The notes under the pieces are model-generated. The model made no database searches. It was not told where the DNA came from and was given only the letters and a program-made list of their open reading frames with translations. A DNA stretch of 32,821 bases, from NCBI GenBank assembly GCA_001783145.1, contig MFQT01000015.1, positions 1-32,821 on the forward strand, written 5' to 3'. The position numbers and the translations under genes are program-made. This stretch comes from Candidatus Magasanikbacteria bacterium RIFOXYB2_FULL_38_10. Lineage in GTDB: Bacteria; Patescibacteriota; Patescibacteriia; Magasanikbacterales; UBA10003. Shown piece by piece: positions 1 through 32,821 of the stretch (positions are counted from its first letter, which is position 1; the number at the start of each line of letters is the position of its first letter).

Positions 1-195
1 CCTTCGCTACATTTCGCCAATCCAAAACTTCGTTTTGTCTTAGCGAAACGTTTGATAAGCGCGCCTCATTATTTTTTCACTTTTTGTTTTTTGTGATTGA
101 CGAACGGCGAGGGGGGGCGAATGTGAGTGAATTGAGGGGTTAAAAGGTGTTTTTTTCGCTACGCTACAAAAACGATCAAATTTATAAATAATATT
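1..195. other. Non-coding leader with small inverted repeats
   Basis: No credible gene is seen here. An imperfect hairpin (cgttt / aaacg, 31-50) and a second AT-arm hairpin around 150-176 (gtttttt / aaaaac enclosing cgctacgctac) are visible. The motif ttcgctac occurs at both 3-10 and about 157-164. A TATAAA-like box at about 183-188 lies just before the ATG at 196 and could drive a nearly leaderless transcript. Nothing more can be said. Confidence 0.4.
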
Positions 196-612
196 ATGAG
201 CATTACAATTACAGCCGATTCAGTTTCTTGGTATGGTGCCATTATCGCGACAATTAGTTTTTTTGGTACAATTACTATCGGCACTCTAGAATATCTTAGA
301 GATAGATCAAAAGTAAAAATAACCGCAAAAAAAGGATACAAAATTTTAACCATAAGTGGACTTGAAAACAACCCCCAAATAATCTTAACGGCCATTAACA
401 AAGGGCGACGCCCTGTTACATTAGAGGGATTTTGTTTTAACACAAAAAATGGCGAGAGTCTTTTATATCCTTTCCACCCGGGCATTACTTTCCCGTATGA
501 ATTAAAAGAAGGAAAATCCTATAAATTTTCAGTAGACGAGGATGGCCTGACAAAGGATCCCAAAATAAAAGAAAATCCGATAAAAGATACTTATTTTAAC
601 TTTAATCGGTAA
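196..612 (+). CDS. Membrane-anchored small protein, beta-rich outer domain
   Basis: This 138-residue protein of unknown function has one probable membrane helix near the N-terminus (about residues 12-32). A short basic stretch follows (LRDRSKVK), then a soluble beta-rich domain with an INKGRRPVTLEGF segment. That segment resembles small anchored proteins with an Ig-like fold found scattered across bacteria, but I recognise no named family. The ATG at 196 has no Shine-Dalgarno site and sits just after a TATAAA-like box, as for other genes on this side. It is the first of four accessory genes (196-2022) that look poorly conserved. Its role is unknown; the coding call is fairly secure because the frame is full-length and ends in TAA. 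Confidence 0.7.
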   Translation: MSITITADSVSWYGAIIATISFFGTITIGTLEYLRDRSKVKITAKKGYKILTISGLENNPQIILTAINKGRRPVTLEGFCFNTKNGESLLYPFHPGITFPYELKEGKSYKFSVDEDGLTKDPKIKENPIKDTYFNFNR

Positions 613-640
613 ATAACAAGGAATATCTGGTTCGCGAGCT

Positions 641-660
641 AAATAAAAGGATTTAATTTT
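641..660 (+). repeat. Left arm of 20-bp perfect inverted repeat
   Basis: This 20-base stretch (aaataaaagg...aatttt) is the exact reverse complement of 1201-1220. It ends 2 bases before the ATG at 663 and contains the AAAGGA that is the best ribosome-binding site of that gene. A second, outer pair (619-629 against 1268-1278, AGGAATATCTG) repeats the symmetry. Confidence 0.9.
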
Positions 661-662
661 CT

Positions 663-1208
663 ATGATAACAATAACTTATTTTGTGCACGGCACAACCAC
701 AGACAACGAAAAAGATCTTGCCACGGGCTGGGCGCCTGGTGAGCTTTCTGATTTAGGTATCGAGCAATCAAAAAAATTAAGTGGAATGGTGGCTAACAAA
801 AAGTTTTCCGTCGTATTTTGCTCGGACTTAAAAAGAGCTATTGATTCGGCACAATTAGCTTTCGGCAACCAATATGAAATAATTCCAGATAGCAGACTTC
901 GCGAAGCTAACTATGGAGATTTCACCCAAAAATCAGCTGCAGATTTCAAAAACGATATGACTAAATATATTAATTCCCCTTTTCCAAATGGTGAAAGTTA
1001 TAAAGACGTTGAAAAAAGAATGAGAGATTTCGTAAAAGAAGCCACGCAAAAATACAACGGAAAACATATCGCAATCGTAGCTCACCAGGCGCCTCAGCTT
1101 GCACTCGATGTCATATTAAAAGGTAAAACATGGGAACAAGCGATAACTGAAGATTGGCGATTGAAAAAAGCGTGGCAACCTGGTTGGGAATACACGACCG
1201 AAAATTAA
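663..1208 (+). CDS. Histidine-phosphatase-like protein, RHG motif altered to VHG
   Basis: This 181-residue protein belongs to the histidine phosphatase (phosphoglycerate-mutase-like) superfamily, whose members use a phospho-histidine. Visible family marks are His9-Gly10-Thr11, SDLKRA with Arg58, REANYGDF with Glu81, and VAHQAP with the second His at 141. The first Arg of the RHG signature, which binds phosphate, is Val8. The enzyme may have a changed substrate or be inactive; a variant subfamily with VHG is also possible. The start ATG is preceded by AAAGGA within a 20-base inverted-repeat arm whose partner overlaps the stop codon, so the gene is exactly framed by the repeat. No partner gene is apparent. 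Confidence 0.82.
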   Translation: MITITYFVHGTTTDNEKDLATGWAPGELSDLGIEQSKKLSGMVANKKFSVVFCSDLKRAIDSAQLAFGNQYEIIPDSRLREANYGDFTQKSAADFKNDMTKYINSPFPNGESYKDVEKRMRDFVKEATQKYNGKHIAIVAHQAPQLALDVILKGKTWEQAITEDWRLKKAWQPGWEYTTEN

Positions 1209-1220
1209 ATCCTTTTATTT
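1201..1220 (-). repeat. Right arm of 20-bp perfect inverted repeat
   Basis: This is the exact reverse complement of 641-660. It includes the TAA stop (1206-1208) of the histidine-phosphatase-like gene. In the mRNA it could pair with the 5' leader and cover the AAAGGA site. In DNA it could mark an invertible or mobile unit. Confidence 0.9.
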
Positions 1221-1309
1221 TTAATGCTCGCTCACGCAAATTTTTACTCCTTTCAGTCGTAAAAACTTCAGATATTCCTAAACATTAGGAAAAAAATCTT
1301 TAATCAATT

Positions 1310-1699
1310 ATGGGCCAACTAATAAAACTAAAAACTAACGTCATAAAACCTTCTCAAGACTTTCTGAAAAAAGGAACAGTTAATTTTATCTTGGATTGCT
1401 ACAAGAAAGGCGAAATGGATTCCTTGCCGCCGACGCCAATAGTGAGAAAGCATCCTAATGTTCCTGGCGTCTATGTTGCTATTGATGGACATAATTTGCT
1501 AGCCGTCAATGAATTTTTAGGAATTGATAGCGAGGTTTATCTTGTTAATTCCGCCGACGATTACCTTCCTAATCCTACTACAAAGGAATCCATTTCTCAA
1601 AGAAATCAAGATTTAGTCGATAAATACGAAAGCAGTGTATTTGAAGCAGATAAAATTAATCGTTCCTTTAAAGAATTGATTAAGGATTTCATCGCCTAA
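1310..1699 (+). CDS. Small protein with ParB/sulfiredoxin-like motif
   Basis: This 129-residue protein is of uncertain function. The segment YVAIDGHNLLAVNEFLG (DGHN at 59-62) resembles the DGHHR-type loop of the ParB/sulfiredoxin fold, in which short proteins read 'where to act' positions or carry nucleotide-dependent activity. The N-terminal part (KTNVIKPSQDFLKKGTV) also fits the first strand and helix of that fold. The canonical Arg after the His is Leu here, so catalysis cannot be assumed. No Shine-Dalgarno site precedes the ATG. It stands between the inverted-repeat cassette and a Fic remnant, in DNA that looks like an accessory patch. Confidence 0.6.
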   Translation: MGQLIKLKTNVIKPSQDFLKKGTVNFILDCYKKGEMDSLPPTPIVRKHPNVPGVYVAIDGHNLLAVNEFLGIDSEVYLVNSADDYLPNPTTKESISQRNQDLVDKYESSVFEADKINRSFKELIKDFIA

Positions 1700-1737
1700 T
1701 TTAATTCATGAGTTTTCAATCGTAAAATTCTGTCAAG

Positions 1738-2022
1738 ATGGTTTATACCTCGGCGCTACGAGAAAAGGATATGACAAAAATACATACTCTAGGAAAACGT
1801 GCTTCGGAAAGTGCTATGTTAGTATTACCAAAATTATACGCTCAACCAATTGTAAATATTGGCATTATTAAAAAATGGACTGGCTTTACCCACGCGGGTG
1901 CTGAGAGAGTAATTGATAGATTTGTAAAAATTGGCATTCTGACACCAAAAGATAAACACAAGAATTACGGGCAATCATACATATATAAAAATTACATTGA
2001 TTTTTTTGTTGAAAATGAATAA
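1738..2022 (+). pseudogene. C-terminal remnant of a Fic-family protein
   Basis: The 94-residue frame reads like the end of a Fic-family protein. A helix (LREKDMTKIHTLGKRASESAMLVLPKLY) is followed by a winged-helix-like segment (IIKKWTGFTHAGAERVIDRFVKIGIL) and the closing YIYKNYIDFF that usually ends such proteins. The catalytic Fic core (HxFxxGNGR) is absent, and the preceding DNA is another gene ending only 38 bases upstream. It is therefore most likely a truncated leftover, although it could be expressed as a stand-alone winged-helix protein. Its stop codon lies within the first copy of a 14-bp direct repeat (2020-2054). Confidence 0.6.
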
Positions 2023-2081: not shown

Positions 2082-3116
2082 ATGCATTTTTTAATCACTG
2101 GCGGCTCGGGCTTTCTGGGCATCAACTTAATTCGTTATCTTTTAAATAAAAGTCACCGAATCACTTCTTTGGATCTGGTTGAATTTGATTATCCGGAAAA
2201 AGATAAAATCCGTGCCATTATTGGTGATATTAGAAAAAGAGATGATGTAATTAAATCTTTAGAAGGTGCGGATATGGTAGTGCATTGTGCCGCCGCCCTG
2301 CCTCTTTACACTAAAGAGGAAATTTTTTCCACTGATGTTGAAGGAACCAGGATTGTTTTGGAAGAATCTTTAAAAAAAGGAATTAAAAGAGTAATCCATA
2401 TATCCTCTACGGCTGTTTATGGCATTCCCGATCACCATCCACTGATAGAAAATGATAAACTGCAAGGAGTGGGTCCATACGGCGAGGCCAAAATTTTAGC
2501 TGAACAAGTTGGCGAAGAATTTAGAAAGAAAGATTTATGCGTGCCCATCATTCGTCCCAAATCTTTTATCGGCCCGGAACGTTTGGGAGTTTTTGCCCTA
2601 TTTTATGATTGGGCCAGAACCGGACATAATTTTCCTATGCTGGGTAGCGGCAATAATCATTATCAGTTGTTAGACGTAGAAGATTTGTGTGAGGCAATTT
2701 ATTTGTGCATAACCTTACCAAAAGAAAAAGTTAATGATACTTTCAATATCGGCGCCAAACAATTCACCACGATGAAAGAAGATTATCAGGTGGTTTTGGA
2801 TTCAGCGGGATTTGGCAAAAAAATAATTGGCTTACCGGCTACTCCGGCTATTTGGGCATTACGATTTTTAGAAAAAATGCATCTGTCCCCTCTTTACAAA
2901 TGGGTTTACGAAACGGCCAGTAAAGATAGTTTTGTTTCCATAGAAAAAGCTGAACATATTCTGGGGTATGCACCAAAATTTTCCAATAAAAACGCTTTAA
3001 TGAGAAATTATAAATGGTATCTGGCTAATTTAAAAAACTTTGAAGGTAAATCTGGGATCTCTCATCGTGTACCTTGGAAACAAGGAATTCTGGCCCTGGC
3101 CAAGTGGGTGTTTTAA
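2082..3116 (+). CDS. NAD-dependent epimerase/dehydratase (extended SDR)
   Basis: This 344-residue cytoplasmic protein is an extended short-chain dehydrogenase. The Rossmann glycine motif GGSGFLG is at 7-13, Asp31 at the end of strand 2 favours NAD, and the catalytic set Ser109/Thr110 with YxxxK at 133-137 (YGEAK) is intact. The family acts on nucleotide sugars, sterol-like or flavonoid-type substrates; the substrate cannot be told from sequence. The tail (RVPWKQGILALAKWVF) is hydrophobic and may touch the membrane. The gene stands alone, with a tandem 14-bp repeat upstream and a weak terminator at 3124-3146. An envelope polysaccharide role is a reasonable inference. Confidence 0.88.
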   Translation: MHFLITGGSGFLGINLIRYLLNKSHRITSLDLVEFDYPEKDKIRAIIGDIRKRDDVIKSLEGADMVVHCAAALPLYTKEEIFSTDVEGTRIVLEESLKKGIKRVIHISSTAVYGIPDHHPLIENDKLQGVGPYGEAKILAEQVGEEFRKKDLCVPIIRPKSFIGPERLGVFALFYDWARTGHNFPMLGSGNNHYQLLDVEDLCEAIYLCITLPKEKVNDTFNIGAKQFTTMKEDYQVVLDSAGFGKKIIGLPATPAIWALRFLEKMHLSPLYKWVYETASKDSFVSIEKAEHILGYAPKFSNKNALMRNYKWYLANLKNFEGKSGISHRVPWKQGILALAKWVF

Positions 3117-3123
3117 ACAGAAG

Positions 3124-3146
3124 CCGGCTTACAAACCGGATTTTTT
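3124..3146 (+). terminator. Weak intrinsic terminator after the epimerase gene
   Basis: A CCGG / CCGG stem (3124-3127 with 3136-3139) is followed by six T residues on the plus strand. The stem is short, so it is only a candidate. Confidence 0.45.
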
Positions 3147-3168
3147 AGTATATCAAGCTTGAAATTAT

Positions 3169-3201
3169 AAAAAAAGAAGGGTTAGCGTTAGCTTTCCCTT
3201 C
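3169..3201 (-). terminator. Strong intrinsic terminator of the structured RNA
   Basis: On the minus strand GAAGGG (3201-3196) pairs with CCCTTC (3181-3176), with an inner AGC/GCT step, and seven T residues follow (3175-3169). Confidence 0.88.
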
Positions 3202-3719
3202 AAACTGACATTGGTGGATAATCCACAGGTTAAATTCCCGCCACAAGGACGGTGATGAGTATCATTCTCCCTTTTCGTTACTCCGCCCGCTTACGCAAGC
3301 GTCATCACTAAAGGTTATCTGATATGCCCCCTCATCACCGCCTTGTGACAGGCACTTCCCGTACTTTGCCTTTTCTTTAAAGAGACGCTCCGTAAAGTAA
3401 GGCCCGCTATTGCCCATTGGCCGAGGTGCGTAAGCCAAGACTAGCGGTCTGCACCCAACCCAGGCATTTGGGGGCAGCTTTATGTACAGGCACCCCTGTT
3501 TTCCGGCAGCCAAAGCACTTCTCGTGGCCGCTCTTAGAGGCCGTACGGTGACAGCCTCCTAAAAAACAGAAGCCTCGCGCCAGAATGGGGAGGAGATGTA
3601 CCCAAACCCTGCCAATTAAAGGCAGGCAACTTCCGCTATTGCGGAAAGCGTGACGCGAGTTAAAAGTAACACCCCCGCGGAGAAGCAAAGTTATTAAAAA
3701 AGATCTTTTTTATTTGTGT
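3169..3719 (-). ncRNA. Candidate large structured RNA, about 550 nt, unassigned
   Basis: This GC-rich island in AT-rich DNA contains no convincing protein gene. It has a consensus promoter at its minus-strand 5' end (3726-3754) and an intrinsic terminator at its 3' end (3169-3201). Many helices can be drawn: 3242-3259 with 3331-3347 (17 pairs, one bulge), 3289-3292 with 3297-3300, 3404-3409 with 3442-3447 enclosing 3417-3421 with 3434-3438, 3486-3490 with 3495-3499, 3608-3613 with 3621-3626, 3631-3636 with 3641-3646, and 3574-3579 with 3654-3659 closing the last two. I found no RNase P (GAGGAAAGUCC, AGAACCCGGCUUA), tmRNA tRNA-like end or group II domain V signature. It could still be a divergent known RNA. 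Confidence 0.75.
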
Positions 3720-3725
3720 TTTTGT

Positions 3726-3754
3726 ATCTTACCAGACCTGGTTTTTCTTGTCAA
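3726..3754 (-). promoter_or_regulatory. Sigma-70 promoter of the structured RNA
   Basis: On the minus strand TTGACA (3754-3749) is separated by exactly 17 bases from TAAGAT (3731-3726). The predicted start is near 3719. No start codon with a credible protein follows. Confidence 0.85.
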
Positions 3755-25283: not shown

Positions 25284-25307
25284 CCCCGGCCGCTTGTCCG
25301 GGGTTTC
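25284..25307 (+). terminator. GC-rich hairpin at the composition boundary
   Basis: CCCCGG (25284-25289) pairs with CCGGGG (25298-25303), followed by TTTCTT on the plus strand. No plus-strand gene precedes it for more than 2 kb, so its job is unclear; it may only be a leftover. Confidence 0.5.
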
Positions 25308-25316
25308 TTGGTATAT

Positions 25317-25346
25317 AAAAAAACCCTTCACCATTGCTGGCGAAGG
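25317..25346 (-). terminator. Minus-strand terminator at the boundary
   Basis: On the minus strand CCTTCGCC (25346-25339) pairs with GGTGAAGG (25332-25325), with one G-U pair, and is followed by GTTTTTTT. It would end transcription arriving from the nuclease gene at 25541. Positions 25347-25540 between the two hold nothing I can identify. Confidence 0.8.
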
Positions 25347-25540
25347 ATTCGGTAGTCTTAAATCTCTCAGAAGCCAAGACGAAGTTAGAAACGCTGTTAA
25401 GGTACGTGCACGACGACTCGTGGAGTACTTTCAGCGCAACGACGAGGAATCCACCCTTGCGGCCAGTCGGGTTCTACGTCTCGTGGAAGCACAGAAGGAA
25501 CAGACGCGTGCCGATTCGAACGTCGTGTCAGGGCAAGATT

Positions 25541-25855
25541 CTAGCTGAGTTTCTTCCACTGGATCTCGCCGACCTGGTTGAGCTTCTCGTCCACTTGCAC
25601 CCTCGCCTCCCAGGCTTCGCGCTTGGTGTTGGTAGCCCGCGACTTGATGTTTCGCAGTTCATCAGACGAAAGACTGACGGGCGTGTTGGGCAGCACTGCG
25701 GTCTTCACCTGCACGAGGATGCTCGCTGGCCCATTGGCTTCGATGTCCGTCGAGCCCGGCGCCTTTGTGTCCACGTTCGTCATGTAGCCCCTACCGTTCA
25801 GCCACGCGGCCACCAGATGCTCCCCCTTGCTCCCGATCTCGACTGCCGTTGCCAT
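25541..25855 (-). CDS. Small PD-(D/E)xK-like nuclease
   Basis: This 104-residue protein begins at ATG 25855, preceded by GAAGGA ten bases upstream; the long upstream extension of the frame is not protein-like. IGSKGEHLVAAWLNGRGY (Glu12), STDIEA (Asp37) and ILVQVKTA (Gln49, Lys51) match the E...D...(E/Q)xK pattern of restriction-endonuclease-fold nucleases, including small Holliday-resolvase-like and DUF4365-like proteins. The C-terminal half is helical and charged. It would cut DNA or RNA, possibly as a stand-alone subunit. It points away from the AbiJ-like gene and shares a 228-base gap with it. Codon use is GC-rich, unlike the genes to the left. Confidence 0.7.
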   Translation of the reverse strand: MATAVEIGSKGEHLVAAWLNGRGYMTNVDTKAPGSTDIEANGPASILVQVKTAVLPNTPVSLSSDELRNIKSRATNTKREAWEARVQVDEKLNQVGEIQWKKLS

Positions 25856-26083
25856 GGTGTCGCCGTCCTTCTTCTGTGCTAATAGACTTAAACTGCATAT
25901 AGCACCAGCCCCTCCGCCGGTCAAGCGTTCGAAGCGGGGCAGTTTCTTCTTTGGCGCATAGGATTCCTCTTTGGCGACTTGCGCTTTGCGGTCGAACTCG
26001 GCATCATCCATTCGGCACTGTGGGGAGGACATCAGGTGTTCAAGCGGATCTATCCAACAAAACCGTTGGCCAAGCGAAAGGGC

Positions 26084-26899
26084 ATGCCTTTCCACGAACG
26101 CTTCGGTATGGACTTGGACCAAGACGAGGCCAAGCGGAGGTTCTTGAACCGCATCACTAACGTCATCTTCCACTCCTTCTGCGCAACCCTCGGGTCGAGC
26201 TTTGACGGTGACGTGTCCAACTTCGTTAGGGCCGCTGCAAACAAACTTGGGGAGGAGTGGTCCACAAGGGACTTCATGGGCCATCGTGTCGCCCTTACTC
26301 TCGATGACTTGGTTCGTGGCGATTTTGTACGATGTCTGCAAGCCCTTGAGGCGATCTTCGACGCGCTCGAAGATTCCCACTGGAGAAGTAACTTCAACGA
26401 CCTCATTGTATCGATCCTGGGCGAGACCGAAGTGGATCTAGGTATCCGTTGGAAGAATGGTCGCTTCTCTCGAACTGGAGCCGAGATGCTGGACAAGGAC
26501 GTCGTTGAGAAGCCCCTACGCTGGCTGAAGGCCAAGGGGTATGAAGGCGTGCTTGTGCCGTTCAGACGTGCGCTCGTGAACTTCGGACGAGTAACCGACG
26601 AGACCACTACTTTACCGAACGCCGTCGCCGATTTGCACGAAGCCATGGAAGCGTTGGCCAAGAAGGTGACAGGCCGTACCTCCAAGGACCTCGCAGGCAA
26701 CTACGAGATCATGCTGAAAACGCTGGGAACGCCTGACGAATTCAAGGACTTGTTCAGGTGGTATGTGAAGTACGCCAACAGCTTGGCTCGTCACGCTGGC
26801 GACGGGACCGCGCCTCGCAGGTCCCTGGAGAGGCGCGAGGTGGAAGCCTTCCTCTACCTCACGGGGACGCTGATCCGGTTTATCATGGAGGAATCCTGA
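26084..26899 (+). CDS. AbiJ/HEPN-like protein, possible abortive infection
   Basis: From ATG 26084 this protein has 271 residues. The frame stays open upstream to 25892 and could begin earlier (TTG 25979), but FHERFGMDLDQDEAKRRFLNRITNVIF looks like the natural start of the fold. The layout is an N-terminal helical part, a central segment (EVDLGIRWKNGRFSRTGAEMLDKDVVEKPLRWL) and a helical C-terminal domain (DLHEAMEALAKKVTGRTSKDL...YVKYANSLARHAGDG...VEAFLYLTGTLIRFI). This recalls AbiJ-type abortive-infection proteins with a HEPN-like end, by memory of the pattern only. The N-H-x3-H RNase motif is not clear: SLARHAGDG is the closest. It may form a defence pair with the divergent nuclease. Confidence 0.62.
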   Translation: MPFHERFGMDLDQDEAKRRFLNRITNVIFHSFCATLGSSFDGDVSNFVRAAANKLGEEWSTRDFMGHRVALTLDDLVRGDFVRCLQALEAIFDALEDSHWRSNFNDLIVSILGETEVDLGIRWKNGRFSRTGAEMLDKDVVEKPLRWLKAKGYEGVLVPFRRALVNFGRVTDETTTLPNAVADLHEAMEALAKKVTGRTSKDLAGNYEIMLKTLGTPDEFKDLFRWYVKYANSLARHAGDGTAPRRSLERREVEAFLYLTGTLIRFIMEES

Positions 26900-26955
26900 C
26901 ACTGTCCTGATCGGAAGCACTGCTTTGCAGTCTGAGCCCAAAGGCTCAAAGCCAA

Positions 26956-28308
26956 CTATTGTATGGCTCCTGCCGGCGGTGTGTCCTTCTCGCACACCGG
27001 GCCACCCAATGTCGGTTCATCTTCCTTTCCGCGAGAGTTTATACGTAAAAGGAATGCAACAAACAACTTACGTTGCGCACTCTCCTCTTCTTTCACCTGT
27101 CTCTCTCGCAGCATGTAATACGCCAACCGATGGGTGCCCACAAGCCACGAAACAAGCCCCAGAAGAAACACCTTTGAGTACAGCGCCACCACAACGGCCG
27201 ACGACCCCATCATGTATTGCACCGGCCCCTGGGGATTGGCTATTATCGAGAACAACGGCTGTATGCCAATGTATACGATAAGCAATATGACAACTCCGGT
27301 TGGAACGTCAATTGTCCTTGTTCCCATTCTCAATACGAACAAGCCCGTGCAGACCGCTACCGCTATCCCAGACATAACGGAGAAGATATCCGAAACGGCG
27401 GTCGTAGCTTCAGTCGCTCCTGGTCCGCCTGCAATTATTGATGTGGCAACTTCTACAGCAGCAAAAACAAACACAACAACCACGGCAAATATCCAGGCTT
27501 TTGACGGGCGATCTACGCCGACCGTTATTTCAGATAATTCAACATATAGAGCGTAAAAAATTACAGCCGTACAGTTGTTAAAAACGTTTTCAGCCACACT
27601 GCATATCGCAAACATCGTCACATTGTCGTCACATATGCTTTTAATAAACAAAAAAGAGTACAAAAATATCCAACACGCCCAGAGAAACGGCCAGAAACTT
27701 AGGAAGTTACGACATGCTATTGCCGCTGTCTCCGCGCTCTCGAATCCGTCTTTGTTGCCGTCTTTGTGGATCGATTTTATGTCGCCGGCGGTTGGGACAT
27801 CTCGCAAGTTTATCGCCGACAACAGAAGCGCCATAAGTATAATAATATGAAAGAGATAAAAACCACAATCCAAGTACCTCGGAATCAGCGGAATACTTTG
27901 AGGAACTACTGACGCATTACTTCGTTGTTCCACTTGGGAGATCTTAGCAGATGGCTCTTGGGCAGCAGTTTCCATCACTGCGGTCTTCTTCGAGGCCAGC
28001 ATGATGAAGTCGTCTATGTATATACATCGCAGTGAAATAGAAGCGAGCGATCCAATTGAAACGATAGATATAACAACAAGCAGCCAACGCGCCTTCGCCT
28101 TGGTCCACTCCCACATAGAAGGCATTTCCGGATCACTGAGTGGCTCGTACGTGAGACGCTTAAAAAAAGCATTAGAAGCCTTGCGAATATACTCTATGAC
28201 TTCCGTCAGTGAAGACTTATTGGCTCCATTGGCAGTACCCAATTCATTTTCTCTCAAAAGCGCCGCCCCCGCGGATTGTATATCATTTATGGGGACCAAT
28301 AAAGACAC
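26956..28308 (-). CDS. Polytopic membrane protein, unknown
   Basis: This 450-residue protein has a soluble N-terminus of about 70 residues and about eight membrane helices (near 74-96, 148-168, 205-228, 236-258, 270-292, 308-328, 332-350, 370-392). A Glu/Lys-rich cytoplasmic tail follows. A charged loop lies between helices 1 and 2. No transporter signature is recognised. The start is taken as GTG 28308 without a ribosome-binding site, so it is uncertain. Third-codon positions are clearly less GC-rich than in the genes on both sides, with many ATA and TTA codons, which suggests it was acquired separately. Confidence 0.65.
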   Translation of the reverse strand: MSLLVPINDIQSAGAALLRENELGTANGANKSSLTEVIEYIRKASNAFFKRLTYEPLSDPEMPSMWEWTKAKARWLLVVISIVSIGSLASISLRCIYIDDFIMLASKKTAVMETAAQEPSAKISQVEQRSNASVVPQSIPLIPRYLDCGFYLFHIIILMALLLSAINLRDVPTAGDIKSIHKDGNKDGFESAETAAIACRNFLSFWPFLWACWIFLYSFLFIKSICDDNVTMFAICSVAENVFNNCTAVIFYALYVELSEITVGVDRPSKAWIFAVVVVFVFAAVEVATSIIAGGPGATEATTAVSDIFSVMSGIAVAVCTGLFVLRMGTRTIDVPTGVVILLIVYIGIQPLFSIIANPQGPVQYMMGSSAVVVALYSKVFLLGLVSWLVGTHRLAYYMLRERQVKEEESAQRKLFVAFLLRINSRGKEDEPTLGGPVCEKDTPPAGAIQ

Positions 28309-28560
28309 TGCTGGAGGAGTAGCCTCGAGGAATCAGACAATGTAGCAAAGGCAACAGGGAGAGCAGGGCTGCTTGGCGCTGGAGTAGAGAACATGGTGAT
28401 CCGGGGGCAATACTGCGCATTCCCCTGCCTCCCAAGCCGCGAACCCGGAAGTCCATAATAGGCATACGGATATCAGATCCTTAGTGCAAGGGTTTCCGGC
28501 TAGCGTGCCCGAAGCCGGGATACGATGCAGGGGGGCAGTATCGGCTCGAAGGTTTGGCTG
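28309..28560. other. Intergenic stretch without identified features
   Basis: The 252 bases between two minus-strand genes hold a CCGGCT / AGCCGG hairpin (about 28496-28518) with no T run, and no gene that I can support. Confidence 0.5.
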
Positions 28561-29916
28561 TCAGTTCGGGCATTCAGGCGGCCACGCGTAACCGATAATA
28601 GGATCTGGTCCCTTAAACACGTCGAGTCTCAAGTTGTCGTCGTCAGCGAGGGTGAGTCCGCCACCTCTAGAGTAGTCGATACGCACTGGCCGAGTTCCCG
28701 GCGGGTGATGTCCGGCCTTGCCAAAGACCTGCATGCCCTTCCGGTGGCCGGCGGAAGGCGCATCAACAAGGTCGGCGTCACCGGTCTTCGGATCGGGCGG
28801 AACCAGGTACCCCAGGAACCCGCCTGGTAACGGATGTTGGGCCAGCGACACTACGTCCGGGTTGTAGGAGCACGGTGTGAAGAGAGCATTTCCGCACTTG
28901 CCTCCTAGGCAACAGTAGTACTCCTTGCCTAAAGCCGCATCGTCGCTCTGGCGCTTCGTAAAAAACGCCACCCGGATCTTAGTCAGGCGGTGAAGGACGC
29001 CCTCACGATCCTTGAACGACGACAGGCCAGGCCAGGAACTCATGACCACGTCTTTTTTTAATACGTCTTTTTTGTCAATATGCTCGTCCGTGTACTCATA
29101 CACGGCAACGAAGTCGAGGCAAGCCTTCGTCTCGGGCTGGTCGACCAGTCGATAAAGGTCCGTGAACGACGCGCGTGATAAGTCTAGTTCCGTCGCTTCC
29201 TCTTGGCCCTCGGCCACTACCTGTTCACGGGTTAGTTCCCCAGGAGGTTGGTTCGGCGGAGCGTCCTTGGCCGTGCCCCTCTGGCCAGCCTCATGCGAGA
29301 GCACTGGACGCGAACCCCCGACGTCGTCCGATTGCTGACCGCTTGGGGCATCACTGTGGACATGCTGTGGACCGTGGCTGAGTGCCACGACGATAAAGGC
29401 AGAGACGACAACCAAGCCCGTGGTCACGGCTGTGGGCACGAGGTGCTTCCGCGGGCTAGCGCTACTGCGCGGCCCAAGGAATGGCTTCAATGGCAGAAGC
29501 AAAAACGTGGCGATCCGCTGAAGCCGCCACCGGCCTGAACGTTTCTCAGAGCTCTGTACATACGGCAATACGCGTCCGATCTCCTCCAGGTTGCCGTCCA
29601 AGCCCAAACCCGGAGTCTCGCGAGTCGGCGGTTCTTCCGGCAGTTTCATCTTCCGATGACCGGGATAGGCAATGTGGAAGCGCTCTACGAAATGTTGGCG
29701 TCCTTCGCTCTTCGGGTCTGGGAAGTAGTACCAGATGAGCTTCAGGAGAGTGCCCGGGCCGGCCGTCCCCTTTTCAAGCAGCTCGCCAAGCTGCTTCTTG
29801 TCGACTTCAGCCTGACTGATGACTGAGGCCCGAGAGACTCCGGCGGCAAGATCCTGCCGCAGACGCTGGGCAAGATAGTCACCAACATCAGTCCGCTTGT
29901 TCTCAGGCCGCGGCAT
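28561..29916 (-). CDS. Single-span membrane protein with Cys-rich outer domain
   Basis: This 451-residue protein starts at ATG 29916 with GGGGAG upstream. The N-terminal 90 residues are helical and could be a degenerate HTH-like or adaptor domain (DVGDYLAQRLRQDLAAGVSRASVISQAEVDKKQLGELLEKG). A single membrane helix (about 165-183, TAVTTGLVVVSAFIVVALS) separates it from a disordered Pro/Gly/Ser linker. The last 200 residues form an outer domain with paired cysteines (YYCCLGGKCGNALFTPC) and a closing WPPEC. The plan, cytoplasmic sensor plus outer disulfide domain, fits a signalling or envelope component, but no family is recognised. Confidence 0.65.
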   Translation of the reverse strand: MPRPENKRTDVGDYLAQRLRQDLAAGVSRASVISQAEVDKKQLGELLEKGTAGPGTLLKLIWYYFPDPKSEGRQHFVERFHIAYPGHRKMKLPEEPPTRETPGLGLDGNLEEIGRVLPYVQSSEKRSGRWRLQRIATFLLLPLKPFLGPRSSASPRKHLVPTAVTTGLVVVSAFIVVALSHGPQHVHSDAPSGQQSDDVGGSRPVLSHEAGQRGTAKDAPPNQPPGELTREQVVAEGQEEATELDLSRASFTDLYRLVDQPETKACLDFVAVYEYTDEHIDKKDVLKKDVVMSSWPGLSSFKDREGVLHRLTKIRVAFFTKRQSDDAALGKEYYCCLGGKCGNALFTPCSYNPDVVSLAQHPLPGGFLGYLVPPDPKTGDADLVDAPSAGHRKGMQVFGKAGHHPPGTRPVRIDYSRGGGLTLADDDNLRLDVFKGPDPIIGYAWPPECPN

Positions 29917-30047
29917 CGGGCGTTGGCTCCCCGGAAACTGTCTGTTTTCACCCCGTCTTCAAACGGAAACCCAGACTACCACAGCTTCTGACGCCATAGT
30001 ATTTCTCCCGGTTCGCCAAGAGCCAAGAAGCCGTTTTATAGCATAAG

Positions 30048-30073
30048 AAAACCCCAGCGTTGGAGCGCTGGGG
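30048..30073 (-). terminator. Intrinsic terminator of the second RNA
   Basis: CCCCAGCG (minus, 30073-30066) pairs with CGCTGGGG (30059-30052) and is followed by TTTTCTT. Confidence 0.85.
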
Positions 30074-30260
30074 TGGGAGGGGTGCCTCGGCGACGTTGCG
30101 TCGCACGGCGTCCTGGCCGGAGGGAGCCCGAAAAACTCCCGTGACCCGGCCCCGGTCCTGACCGACCGGTGGAACTTGGCTCCCGCGTCCCCCTGAAGGT
30201 CCGGAACTTCAGGGCGAAACAGGAACATCCACCATCGAATCAAACCGGTTCCTAAATGAT
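30048..30260 (-). ncRNA. Candidate structured RNA, about 210 nt
   Basis: A minus-strand unit bounded by a promoter (30267-30296) and a strong terminator (30048-30073) holds four clean hairpins in a row: 30191-30198 with 30207-30214 (8 bp), 30152-30157 with 30164-30169, 30122-30126 with 30136-30140, and 30090-30095 with 30099-30104. The open frame across it is not protein-like. It lies between the start of the Cys-rich membrane protein gene and the vWA operon. Its promoter -35 box is only 23 bases from the vWA start codon. I see no match to 6S, tmRNA, SRP or RNase P signatures. Confidence 0.6.
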
Positions 30261-30266
30261 ATCAAC

Positions 30267-30296
30267 ATGTTACGCCAAGGCGGCCGGGCCTGTCAA
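30267..30296 (-). promoter_or_regulatory. Promoter of the second RNA
   Basis: On the minus strand a perfect TTGACA (30296-30291), an 18-base spacer and TAACAT (30272-30267). Confidence 0.55.
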
Positions 30297-30319
30297 GGGC
30301 CAGCCGCAGGGAGGAGATC

Positions 30320-31750
30320 ATGCGGGATCGGCAGTGGCAACAGGGACTTGACCACGAAATTGGGTCCGGTGAGGACGTGGAGAAGGCTGCCGCGCGCTCT
30401 ATGAAGCTGCGCGCCCCCGCGCGCGATCACCAAGTTGAAGGGTCCATCAACGAGGGCCGCGTCCGGCCCTACGTGGTGGAGCGCGCAATCGCCCGGATCG
30501 CCGACTTGGACGAGTTGGTCCGCGCGGCGGGGTCGGATGTCGTTTCGAAGGTTGCGGCGGCGGCGTCCGCGCCCAATGCGGGGTTCGTGTTCACCATGGT
30601 TGTCTCGTGCACCGTATTTGATGGGTTCCTCCTGGCCGGGGGAATCGCGAACGCCATTCCCACCACCGAATCTTGGTGCGGTCAATTCGCCACCGGGCTG
30701 GGGGTCGCCGTCATGTGCACGTTGGGGGCGTGGGCTTTGGGCGTCGGTATCGTTGCTCTCGACATCGGCCGTTTCGGCCCCCTCGTCGCGTTGACGACCA
30801 GCGCCGTTGCTGGGTGGGTAGCCGGGGCCACTGTTGGCGAAGCCAGCGGTGACACGCCCGAAGCTACGCGCCTCCGCGCGGTTCTTTCCGCTGCTTCGCT
30901 CGCCGCCGCCTGCGTCCTTGAGGTTCTGGCCGCCGAGAGACGCAAGACGGTCAGTCCTGCCAAGGCCGCGGAAAGGGTACTTGCGCGGCTTGTGCATGAG
31001 CGCGACGCCCTGCTCAGCTACGTGGGGGCGTACCAGGACAGGGCGCTGGACGCTTGGCAGGCACATTTGGGCCAGCAGGCCGATCACCAAGATGCCTTGG
31101 TAGTGGGTCACTTCGCCCACCATCAGCAGGGCATTCGCAACAGGTGGGTCTGGCGGACCGTGGCCAGCGCCATCTCCAAATTCTTCGTTATCGCGCTGCT
31201 CGCTACCATTCCGGCAAGGCTCCATGCCGAAACGAAAGCGGTCGTCCTAGACGTCTCCGGCTCCGTTGCGGGAACCGGACTGGCCGACCAGGTGCTCGCC
31301 ACCACTCCGCTTTCGTACGGCGACTCCATTGAGGCGTTTGCGCTGGAGTGCACAGGCCTGCGGCCAATCTACCGCGCTACAATCCGCAGGGTGTCCGAGC
31401 CTCGGCACAAGCAGGACCTTGCGCGCGTACGGCAGGAACTGTCCGATGCCCTGTCTCGGGCCACCGGGGATTCCACCGACCAAGGCTGCAGCCCCATCGC
31501 TAGTTCCCTTGCGACGCTCGCGGCGGATCTCCAGATCCGTATTGCGCAGGGCGAGCCAGTCACCCTCGTCGTGGCGTCGGATTTCATCGAGAACGACGGC
31601 TACAACGCCGCTGATGGACAGGCGTTTCGCGATGTGAGCGTCGTAGTCGCGATGCCGCCGCCCTCTGGAAAAGACCCGTCGGTACGCGCACAGGCGATTG
31701 CCTTGGCCCGGAAGATCTTCGCTTCGGCCAAGTCGTTGATCTTCAAGTAG
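30320..31750 (+). CDS. Membrane-anchored vWA-domain protein
   Basis: This 476-residue protein starts behind a strong ribosome-binding site (GGGAGGAGA, 30309-30317). The N-terminal half has a charged cytoplasmic head (1-85) and four membrane helices (about 88-112, 123-148, 153-173, 186-205). A charged helical stretch with many His (HLGQQADHQDALVVGHFAHHQQ) leads to a fifth helix (282-302). A von Willebrand factor A domain follows, with VVLDVSGSVAG giving the MIDAS motif Asp311-x-Ser313-x-Ser315 and SDFIEND supplying Asp421. The Mg2+ site seems complete, so the domain should bind a partner. The next two genes follow at 9 and 2 bases. No described vWA system has this exact plan that I recall. Confidence 0.85.
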   Translation: MRDRQWQQGLDHEIGSGEDVEKAAARSMKLRAPARDHQVEGSINEGRVRPYVVERAIARIADLDELVRAAGSDVVSKVAAAASAPNAGFVFTMVVSCTVFDGFLLAGGIANAIPTTESWCGQFATGLGVAVMCTLGAWALGVGIVALDIGRFGPLVALTTSAVAGWVAGATVGEASGDTPEATRLRAVLSAASLAAACVLEVLAAERRKTVSPAKAAERVLARLVHERDALLSYVGAYQDRALDAWQAHLGQQADHQDALVVGHFAHHQQGIRNRWVWRTVASAISKFFVIALLATIPARLHAETKAVVLDVSGSVAGTGLADQVLATTPLSYGDSIEAFALECTGLRPIYRATIRRVSEPRHKQDLARVRQELSDALSRATGDSTDQGCSPIASSLATLAADLQIRIAQGEPVTLVVASDFIENDGYNAADGQAFRDVSVVVAMPPPSGKDPSVRAQAIALARKIFASAKSLIFK

Positions 31751-31759
31751 GAGGCGGCC

Positions 31760-32074
31760 ATGCAGACCCTCGGCAGCATCCTCCTGCTTCTCCTGTGCGT
31801 AGCCGGGTTTGGCGTCATGTTCAATGCCGCCTGGGCCAAGCGCTTATTCGGCTGGGTCATCGGCGTGGCGGCCTTATCGGCTTTCGCCATTGCCCTTTGG
31901 CACGTCGTCGCTGGGGCGTTGAACCAGGTCCTGCCCGGTGCCGACTTCGGACTGGTCGTCGGCCTCATCTTCCTCGGTGCGGCAGTGGTCAGGTTCGTGC
32001 GGCACCGCCGGGCTCTCACGAAGTGGTGGGGCGAACGCCCGACATCCATGAAATGGCGCGTGGACAGGGACTAG
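31760..32074 (+). CDS. Small membrane protein of the vWA operon
   Basis: This 104-residue protein has three membrane helices (about 5-22, 29-55, 62-80) and a basic cytoplasmic tail (RFVRHRRALTKWWGERPTSMKWRVDRD). A GGAGG ribosome-binding site overlaps the stop codon of the vWA gene, so translation is coupled. In a conjugation-like setting it could be a small inner-membrane partner of the ATPase that starts 2 bases after its stop. No family is recognised. Confidence 0.82.
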   Translation: MQTLGSILLLLLCVAGFGVMFNAAWAKRLFGWVIGVAALSAFAIALWHVVAGALNQVLPGADFGLVVGLIFLGAAVVRFVRHRRALTKWWGERPTSMKWRVDRD

Positions 32075-32076
32075 CA

Positions 32077-32821
32077 ATGATTACGGATACGACCACCCTT
32101 GCTTTGGCCCTGGGCCGCCTCGGACGGCGGAAGAAGCCCTCGGACGCGACGCCACCTGTCGGCGTTGTCGTCGGGCAGACCAACGCCGGCGCGCCAGTGC
32201 TGTGGCCCTCGCCCTCTCTCTCCCAGGCTTCGCACTCGGCCGTATTGGCCGCTTCCGGCGCCGGGAAAACCATCCTGACGAGTCTCGCCCTCTTGGGCGA
32301 GATCGCCTCGGACAACGGTCATGCCAAGGAGTCGCGACAAGGCACTGTTGTCCTGGACCCCAAGGGTGACCTCATCTCCACGCTTCTCATGGGCCTTGCC
32401 GCCGAATTGCCCGAACGATTGTCCGACGTGGTCTACCTCAACCCTTTTGTGGGTGGATTCCACTTCAATCTCTCGCTGCTAGCGCTCGGCAAGACCCCCT
32501 TGGACATCCGTGCCCATCAGATTGCGGCGCTCGTCGCCGCCGTCAGCACGGGGGTGGGGAGCCAGGCGCACCTTGGCGCTGGCGCCCGGCAGATCGACGT
32601 CCTCGAAGGAACCACCCTCGCGGCTTTAGACTGCGACCATCCCGAGGCGTCCGTCTTGTGGGCCTTGGACGCTCTCACGCAGAAGAAGGGAATGGGCCTG
32701 CTTGCCAAAGCGACGCGCTCGCGCCGGGCCCGGCAATTCCTTGAAGGCGCCAGCCTTTCTGACGAACTCAAAGCGTCGTGTTCGTCGCGCCTGCGCCTGG
32801 CATTTGCGGCGTCCGCAGATC
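32077..32821 (+). CDS. VirD4/TraG-like ATPase, 3' end outside window
   Basis: The first 248 residues are present and the frame runs off the window. The start is ATG 32077, two bases after the preceding stop. There is a Walker A loop ASGAGKT (59-65) and a VVLDPKGDL block (91-99), as in type IV coupling proteins and related DNA-transfer ATPases. A segment follows (SDVVYLNPFVGGFHFNLSLL) that parallels DDVVIFDPSDIERPVGLNML in the AT-rich-side ATPase at 5389. No membrane helix precedes the P-loop, so the small membrane protein encoded just upstream may provide the anchor. The C-terminal Walker B and the all-alpha domain are not visible. Confidence 0.8.
   Translation, partial: MITDTTTLALALGRLGRRKKPSDATPPVGVVVGQTNAGAPVLWPSPSLSQASHSAVLAASGAGKTILTSLALLGEIASDNGHAKESRQGTVVLDPKGDLISTLLMGLAAELPERLSDVVYLNPFVGGFHFNLSLLALGKTPLDIRAHQIAALVAAVSTGVGSQAHLGAGARQIDVLEGTTLAALDCDHPEASVLWALDALTQKKGMGLLAKATRSRRARQFLEGASLSDELKASCSSRLRLAFAASAD

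Follow-up and report, generated by a model that had tools for sequence, protein, structure and literature searches.

A histidine-phosphatase gene inside an attC-type site and gene-long inverted repeats in integron-like cassettes of Patescibacteria

In the DNA analysed here, a window of 32,821 nucleotides from Candidatus Magasanikbacteria bacterium RIFOXYB2_FULL_38_10, the segment 611-1290 is laid out as one attC-type site (R''-L''...L'-R'), in which a histidine-phosphatase gene takes the place of the terminal hairpin. Inverted repeats nested in one another form a chain over the whole span, coding sequence included (Table 1). With a probability of roughly 0.6, the gene would lie in the tip of a hairpin whose stems act in single-stranded DNA during cassette movement and whose arms are made or repaired by template switching. 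Cassettes with attC sites of this family, from other Patescibacteria and in one case from a DPANN archaeon, commonly have ends whose complementarity extends on from the R boxes, and coding sequences that are self-complementary. As far as could be found, cassettes able to fold back on themselves, coding sequence included, are apparently undescribed so far; a literature search that covered neither preprints nor most subscription journals returned no publication that deals with integrons in CPR bacteria or with cassettes complementary over a whole gene. All sequences used are metagenome assemblies.

Table 1. Features of the array end in the window (all on the + strand)
Feature	Position	Partner or remark
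3' part of repeated attC-like element	1..67	at contig edge
R'-type box ATTATTT, opens first cassette	68..74	pairs with 611-617; by sequence
ORF of 138 aa, body gene of the first cassette (attC at 611-1290)	196..612	not self-complementary itself
R''-type box AAATAAC	611..617	pairs with 68-74; attC layout
attC L'' arm AGGAATATCTG, then family motif GGTTCG (a)	619..629	pairs with 1269-1279
Stem arm GTTCGCGAGC	630..639	pairs with 1226-1235 (8 pairs)
Left arm of 21-bp perfect inverted repeat, with putative Shine-Dalgarno AAAAGGA	641..661	
Histidine-phosphatase gene (PF00300, branch 1), 181 aa	663..1208	inside attC hairpin
Coding stem arm	718..725	partner 1171-1178 (8/8)
Coding stem arm	731..745	perfect partner 1079-1093 (15/15)
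Coding stem arm	803..819	partner 1049-1065 (16/17)
Coding stem arm	1049..1065	partner 803-819
Coding stem arm	1079..1093	partner 731-745
Coding stem arm	1171..1178	partner 718-725
Right arm of 21-bp perfect inverted repeat, over stop codon	1200..1220	
Stem arm GCTCGCTCAC	1226..1235	partner 630-639
attC 3' motif ACGCAAATTTTT...GTAAAAACTT	1234..1268	common to other attCs of the family
attC L' arm CAGATATTCCT (a)	1269..1279	partner 619-629
R'-type box ATTAGGA	1284..1290	opens next cassette
Cassette-end arm	1294..1309	pairs with 1674-1689 (15/16)
129-aa ORF, next cassette gene, no Pfam	1310..1699	self-complementary: 1370-1391/1648-1669, 1412-1425/1583-1596
Cassette-end arm	1674..1689	partner 1294-1309
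R''-type box GCCTAAT	1694..1700	by sequence
94-aa ORF at array end	1738..2022	without self-complementarity

a The L''/L' arms were located by their complementarity.

An earlier note on this DNA had reported exact reverse complements at 641-660 and 1201-1220. This pair is perfect over one further base in each arm, that is over 21 bp (641-661/1200-1220), and it is one of several nested stems between 619 and 1279. The outer pair described in the same note exists as well, with its right arm at 1269-1279 instead of 1268-1278 and its left arm at 619-629. As had been recognised, the Shine-Dalgarno-like site AAAAGGA lies in the left arm, upstream of the ATG at 663, and the right arm 1200-1220 contains the stop codon TAA (1206-1208). 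At least three stems are located within the coding sequence; the three listed in Table 1 had not been seen before, and the inner one of 15 bp (731-745/1079-1093) is GC-rich. The gene product matches PF00300 with E = 5e-30.

The site family was defined by comparison of arrays. Its members begin with R'' (NYYYAAC) and a short L'' arm with GGTTC behind it; a terminal structure comes next, then a motif resembling CACCCAAATTTTT...AAAACTT, the L' arm, and ACGTTRRR. The search rule (AAC, a 9-nt arm, AACTT, the reverse-complement arm, ACGTT-like) yielded one match in the 25 kb of low GC content of the window, with arms at 621 and 1264, and none in a 584-kb control strand of the same genome or in 2.9 Mb of shuffled DNA. 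The arms of this match are 643 nt apart, compared to 41-129 nt in ordinary family members from other CPR genomes. Both pairs of elements typical of attC are in place, R''/R' at 611-617 and 1284-1290 and L''/L' in the outer stem. Known attC sites measure 57-142 nt (PMC2727003); the site in the window, with the gene in its tip, measures 680 nt and is for this reason called attC-type rather than counted among the ordinary attC sites. Its R' box starts with ATT and not with GTT, a feature common to the neighbouring sites on contig C5 of the same genome, which may make it a poor or dead substrate for recombination.

A second gene within an attC was detected in Candidatus Uhrbacteria (L050), where 295 nt between the arms enclose a 52-aa ORF and an inner repeat of 22 bp, and where the bottom-strand DNA fold reaches z = -6.8. 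The same locus holds a decayed remnant of the phosphatase unit of the window, recognisable by its R''-L'' sequence and the start of the gene, which match those of the window (85% identity over 93 nt). The interior of the remnant is deleted just inside the stem corresponding to 718-725/1171-1178, and a short hairpin is found in its place. L050 also contains a direct repeat of about 90 nt (2216-2306 and 2847-2937) flanking a HAD-hydrolase gene (2311-2850), the coding sequence of which is strongly self-complementary (z 5.1).

Compared to dinucleotide shuffles, the RNA fold of 612-1285 has z = -7.9 and the bottom-strand DNA fold of 610-1292 z = -5.5. A chain score, which expresses nested exact stems in bits, amounted to 50 bits for the phosphatase gene versus at most 15.6 in three shuffles of the low-GC part of the window. 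Synonymous codons were also permuted within each gene, a procedure that keeps protein and codon usage. The phosphatase coding sequence alone scored 31.2 versus 5.6 +/- 3.9 after permutation, and that of the 129-aa gene 28.7 versus 6.6; neither value was reached in any of 400 permutations. Under the same treatment, nothing remarkable was seen in nine control genes of the window. When 255 ORFs of the window genome (G000, sampled as stretches of about 306 kb plus the window, not as the whole genome) were ranked, the top three (z 8.2, 6.8, and 4.8; next 3.9) were all array genes, the HD gene of C5 and the phosphatase and 129-aa genes of the window. A folding tendency of the window as a whole was rejected, as folds elsewhere mostly gave z values from -3 to +2.5, with few local hairpins lower.

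Of all chains in the genome sample, the highest (116 bits) is located at one end of contig C5 (L082) around the HD-domain gene, which is enclosed by perfect repeats of 27 and 24 bp and adjoined by a 230-aa gene. The array on C5 comprises a repeated palindromic element of about 80 nt and, in divergent orientation, the gene for a tyrosine recombinase of 304 aa (2393-3307). In full length, the element at the start of the window (1-72) is present twice on C5, next to the recombinase. Because of this common element, the window start is most likely the far end of the C5 array, and contigs C5 and C15 most likely carry one array split between them, the joining being based on the repeat. Short N runs in L082 (1237-1250 and 2173-2206) cover parts of two attC sites.

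The C5 recombinase scored 239.7 bits with the integron-integrase model TIGR02249, below the cut-off of 265, and 226 bits with the XerA/integron-integrase model NF040815 (cut-off 220). It is 34.5% identical to IntI1 over the full length and has an insert of about 33 aa, of uncertain homology, where IntI has its specific domain. XerA-like recombinases were observed in the same regions as attC-type arrays at L098:8610-9455 (genome G023), L152:2635-3456, L155:5933-6826, L159:12226-13071, and L163:5392-6249, several directly adjoining the array; the IntI-specific domain is absent from these five. Two features expected of integrons were found: divergent tyrosine recombinases beside the array in C5, L098, L155, and L163, and ORFs separated by repeated R''-L''/L'-R' sites in C5, L155, L157, L160, and L162. 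Since most of the array recombinases are without the IntI-specific domain, the system is called an integron-like variant and not a textbook integron. Recombinases of this XerA-like kind could be near the ancestor of integron integrases. The array-bearing genomes were found by the attC pattern, after having escaped integrase scans at strict cut-offs. A viral origin was considered and rejected: IMG/VR scans with both proteins gave nothing, and matches to the attC pattern in IMG/VR were without a partner arm.

To what extent these properties are general was apparent from 13 further genome regions, chosen by the attC 3' motif alone. Most of them hold gene-long nested chains, the larger ones of 27-85 bits, and cassette coding sequences reach z = 11.8, 11.7, 9.6, and 8.1 at the top under synonymous permutation. 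Genes inside cassettes with end repeats have a median z of 5.6 (n=10, four of them not clearly self-complementary) versus 0.0 for other ORFs (n=188; p = 1e-4). Self-complementarity was not detected in some cassette genes, namely the 138-aa and 94-aa ORFs of the window, a 300-aa gene in L155, and genes in L163 and L164. The two ends of a cassette pair without any shift: GTTRRRNGA, a 2x2 loop (AA/CA), and an arm of 10-31 bp are mirrored by CATCNYYYAAC. The arms continue the R boxes exactly, and their sequences vary between cassettes. Proteins encoded by self-complementary cassettes are unrelated (NUDIX, HD, RibD, methyltransferase, hydrolases); self-complementarity is therefore a property of the cassette and not of a protein family. 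In G023, a perfect repeat of 31 bp encloses a cassette of two genes. Gene-less mini-cassettes, which form near-perfect hairpins flanked by R' and R'' boxes, were noticed at L098:11163-11208, near 27-62 in L082, and near 8693-8735 in L160. A class 1 integron and Thiodictyon, used as controls, showed neither end repeats nor self-complementary cassette coding sequences.

The 49 relatives of the phosphatase are distributed patchily among CPR bacteria and DPANN archaea. Outside such arrays, most homologues are not self-complementary and fold like shuffles, and an RNA structure common to the family was rejected on these grounds. Exceptions are closely similar units from Woesearchaeota (L022) and Patescibacteria (L028), which are identical at 519 of 546 coding positions and whose DNA homology stops at GTTAGAC/GTCTAAC-type boxes. 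Both have gene-long stems in a register different from that of the window, and none of their 27 coding differences falls into the 80 stem nt (p = 0.012). Nearly the same cassette thus occupies L022:88-840 in an archaeon and L028:2915-3670 in a bacterium, a similarity that would point to recent transfer across domains, provided that both sequences are binned correctly. Relatives that keep the gene, in which the repeat pair was to be sought according to the earlier note, give a divided picture: it is missing from most homologues outside arrays, and on the other side stand the stems of L022 and L028 and the remnant in L050. In G023, a phosphatase copy lacking residues 45-128 (contig C5 of that genome, L099:8294-8564) is present just downstream of a tRNA-like gene; as evidence for hairpins it was set aside, because it is not part of an array and its junction does not coincide precisely with a stem.

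Recombination at known attC sites proceeds on the folded bottom strand (PMC8946536), and perfect stems are known to be made and repaired by template switching (PMC8794818). In the reading preferred here, an array strand exposed by replication, transfer, or excision would form alternating hairpins of attC sites and cassette bodies. Folding would join the boxes for the tyrosine recombinase even with a gene of about 540 nt in the tip of the site, and a single-stranded cassette, once excised, would take the form of a rod or a dumbbell. Perfect arms with sharp edges would arise, and be repaired, by template switching across the hairpins; the products would be filtered by protein function and possibly favoured, as folding would help cassettes to move. 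Several points speak against this reading, among them the ATT of the R' box and the cassette genes without self-complementarity. In known integrons, moreover, long terminal structures make attC recombination in replicating DNA less frequent by as much as four orders of magnitude, although not upon single-strand delivery (PMC8946536). In a wider and more tentative proposal, to which we give slightly less than an even chance, Patescibacteria and DPANN archaea might have in common a variant integron that works with XerA-like recombinases. Its cassettes, genes included, would fold over their whole length into a rod as single-stranded DNA, whole genes could ride in the recombination hairpin, and coding sequences would be shaped by such folding for mobility.

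In 22 cassettes, 77 perfect blocks of at least 10 bp were counted, and complementarity is random (0.24-0.33) right past the first mismatch. Among the end mismatches on the sense strand, GT was found 24 times (23 expected) and AC 34 times (23.5 expected), the excess of A-C, equivalent to G-T on the bottom strand, being weak and noticed post hoc. Perfect blocks with sharp edges and without a G-U excess on the sense strand therefore fit pairing in single-stranded DNA and template-switched arms better than control of the mRNA or inversion.

The arms could also be purely mutational, produced by template switching at hairpins in cassettes that are often single-stranded, with a fold of no benefit. 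Sharp-edged blocks with few single mismatches are in line with this explanation, as are the different registers of the stems in homologous genes and the perfection of the stems, which is what template switching creates and restores (PMC8794818). Unusual amino acids, however, are not enriched among stem residues (3/32 versus 25/149), so that the protein shows no direct footprint of template switching, a point that also counts against the preferred reading. Codon rarity does not differ in the stems. As stem residues are ordinary for the protein family, purifying or fold selection must have filtered any switching events. The lack of unusual residues, the conservation of the L022/L028 stems (p = 0.012), and the conserved 2x2 loop beside the R boxes, by which the arms resemble a defined element, make a purely mutational origin rather unlikely.

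Control at the mRNA level, by pairing of the transcript 3' end with the 5' leader to close the ribosome-binding site, as proposed in the earlier note, or by a rod protecting the mRNA until opened, appears improbable. Its geometry is feasible: the left arm contains the putative Shine-Dalgarno site and the right arm the stop codon, the RNA fold is strong, and in L082 the start region lies within an arm. Pairing in mRNA should tolerate G-U and not A-C on the sense strand, but the stem edges are without G-U excess and, if anything, enriched in A-C. Moreover, the sense strand is not clearly more significantly folded than the antisense strand, the same kind of end repeats is found in gene-less cassettes, themselves hairpins, and in a two-gene cassette, and the arms run on exactly from the R boxes.

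The earlier note came close in suggesting a mobile single-gene unit, since the array is integron-like, with a tyrosine recombinase beside it and an attC-type site; its alternative, an invertible switch with the 21-bp repeats as recombination sites, is very improbable. Perfect inverted repeats do flank the gene, but they are attC and cassette-end arms, and more stems lie both inside and outside of them. Invertible segments should share inverted sites and have an invertase next to them; a genome search allowing up to two mismatches gave no further copy of the 21-bp arm, no DNA invertase was found beside the arms, and the differences in arm sequence between cassettes argue against a shared recombinase target. 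Chance, the base composition of AT-rich DNA, or an error of assembly can be practically dismissed as explanations even though the arms are AT-rich and the metagenomic contig ends within a repeat, because the dinucleotide and synonymous-codon controls already refute chance, the finding is replicated in independent genomes picked regardless of self-complementarity, and the inner 15-bp stem is GC-rich.

The arrays resemble the cassettes and attC sites of class 1-3 integrons and of the Vibrio superintegron in their single-gene units beside a divergent tyrosine recombinase, their R''-L''/L'-R' order, RYYYAAC/GTTRRRY-like boxes, and a predicted bottom-strand hairpin. In contrast to the class 1 and Thiodictyon controls, the cassette bodies are gene-long inverted repeats with end arms of 10-31 bp. 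Archaeal integrons likewise form arrays in metagenome-assembled genomes with exchange across domains (Ghaly et al. 2022, PMC9668308), to which the archaeal L022 and bacterial L028 copies would fit. They are described there with an IntI containing the specific domain and with ordinary attC folding; in the passages searched, neither CPR bacteria nor gene-wide complementarity are mentioned. Scores near or above the NF040815 cut-off place the array-associated recombinases close to XerA/XerC/D-type tyrosine recombinases. Xer proteins are generally known for resolution at dif sites; here, Xer-like recombinases adjoin cassette arrays instead. Type I toxin mRNAs such as hok and aapA1 show long-range 5'-3' pairing and encode small toxin peptides, accompanied by antisense RNA. 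Pairing across the gene that is able to hide the ribosome-binding site is a common trait, but the genes described here specify ordinary enzymes in recombination cassettes. Template-switch mutation at quasipalindromes makes and repairs perfect inverted-repeat arms (PMC8794818, PMC8604942, PMC7202029); in the present case, entire genes of a mobile array are covered, for which no report was found.

If the preferred reading is true, a coding sequence would be constrained by its own folding as single-stranded DNA, and not by RNA or protein folding, the gene being part of the recombination substrate. Such genes, scattered across two domains, would offer a testable handle on gene exchange in ultra-small bacteria and archaea and a natural system for the evolution of palindromes by template switching. 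Surveys limited to short attC sites may overlook sites that bear genes.

Two further observations concern the remainder of the window. A GC-rich intergenic stretch (3151-3750) without an Rfam match is strongly folded (z -4.2). From 25300 to 32821, the GC content rises from about 0.37-0.41 to 0.47-0.65 and the gene style differs, which could reflect a chimeric contig join or a foreign island.
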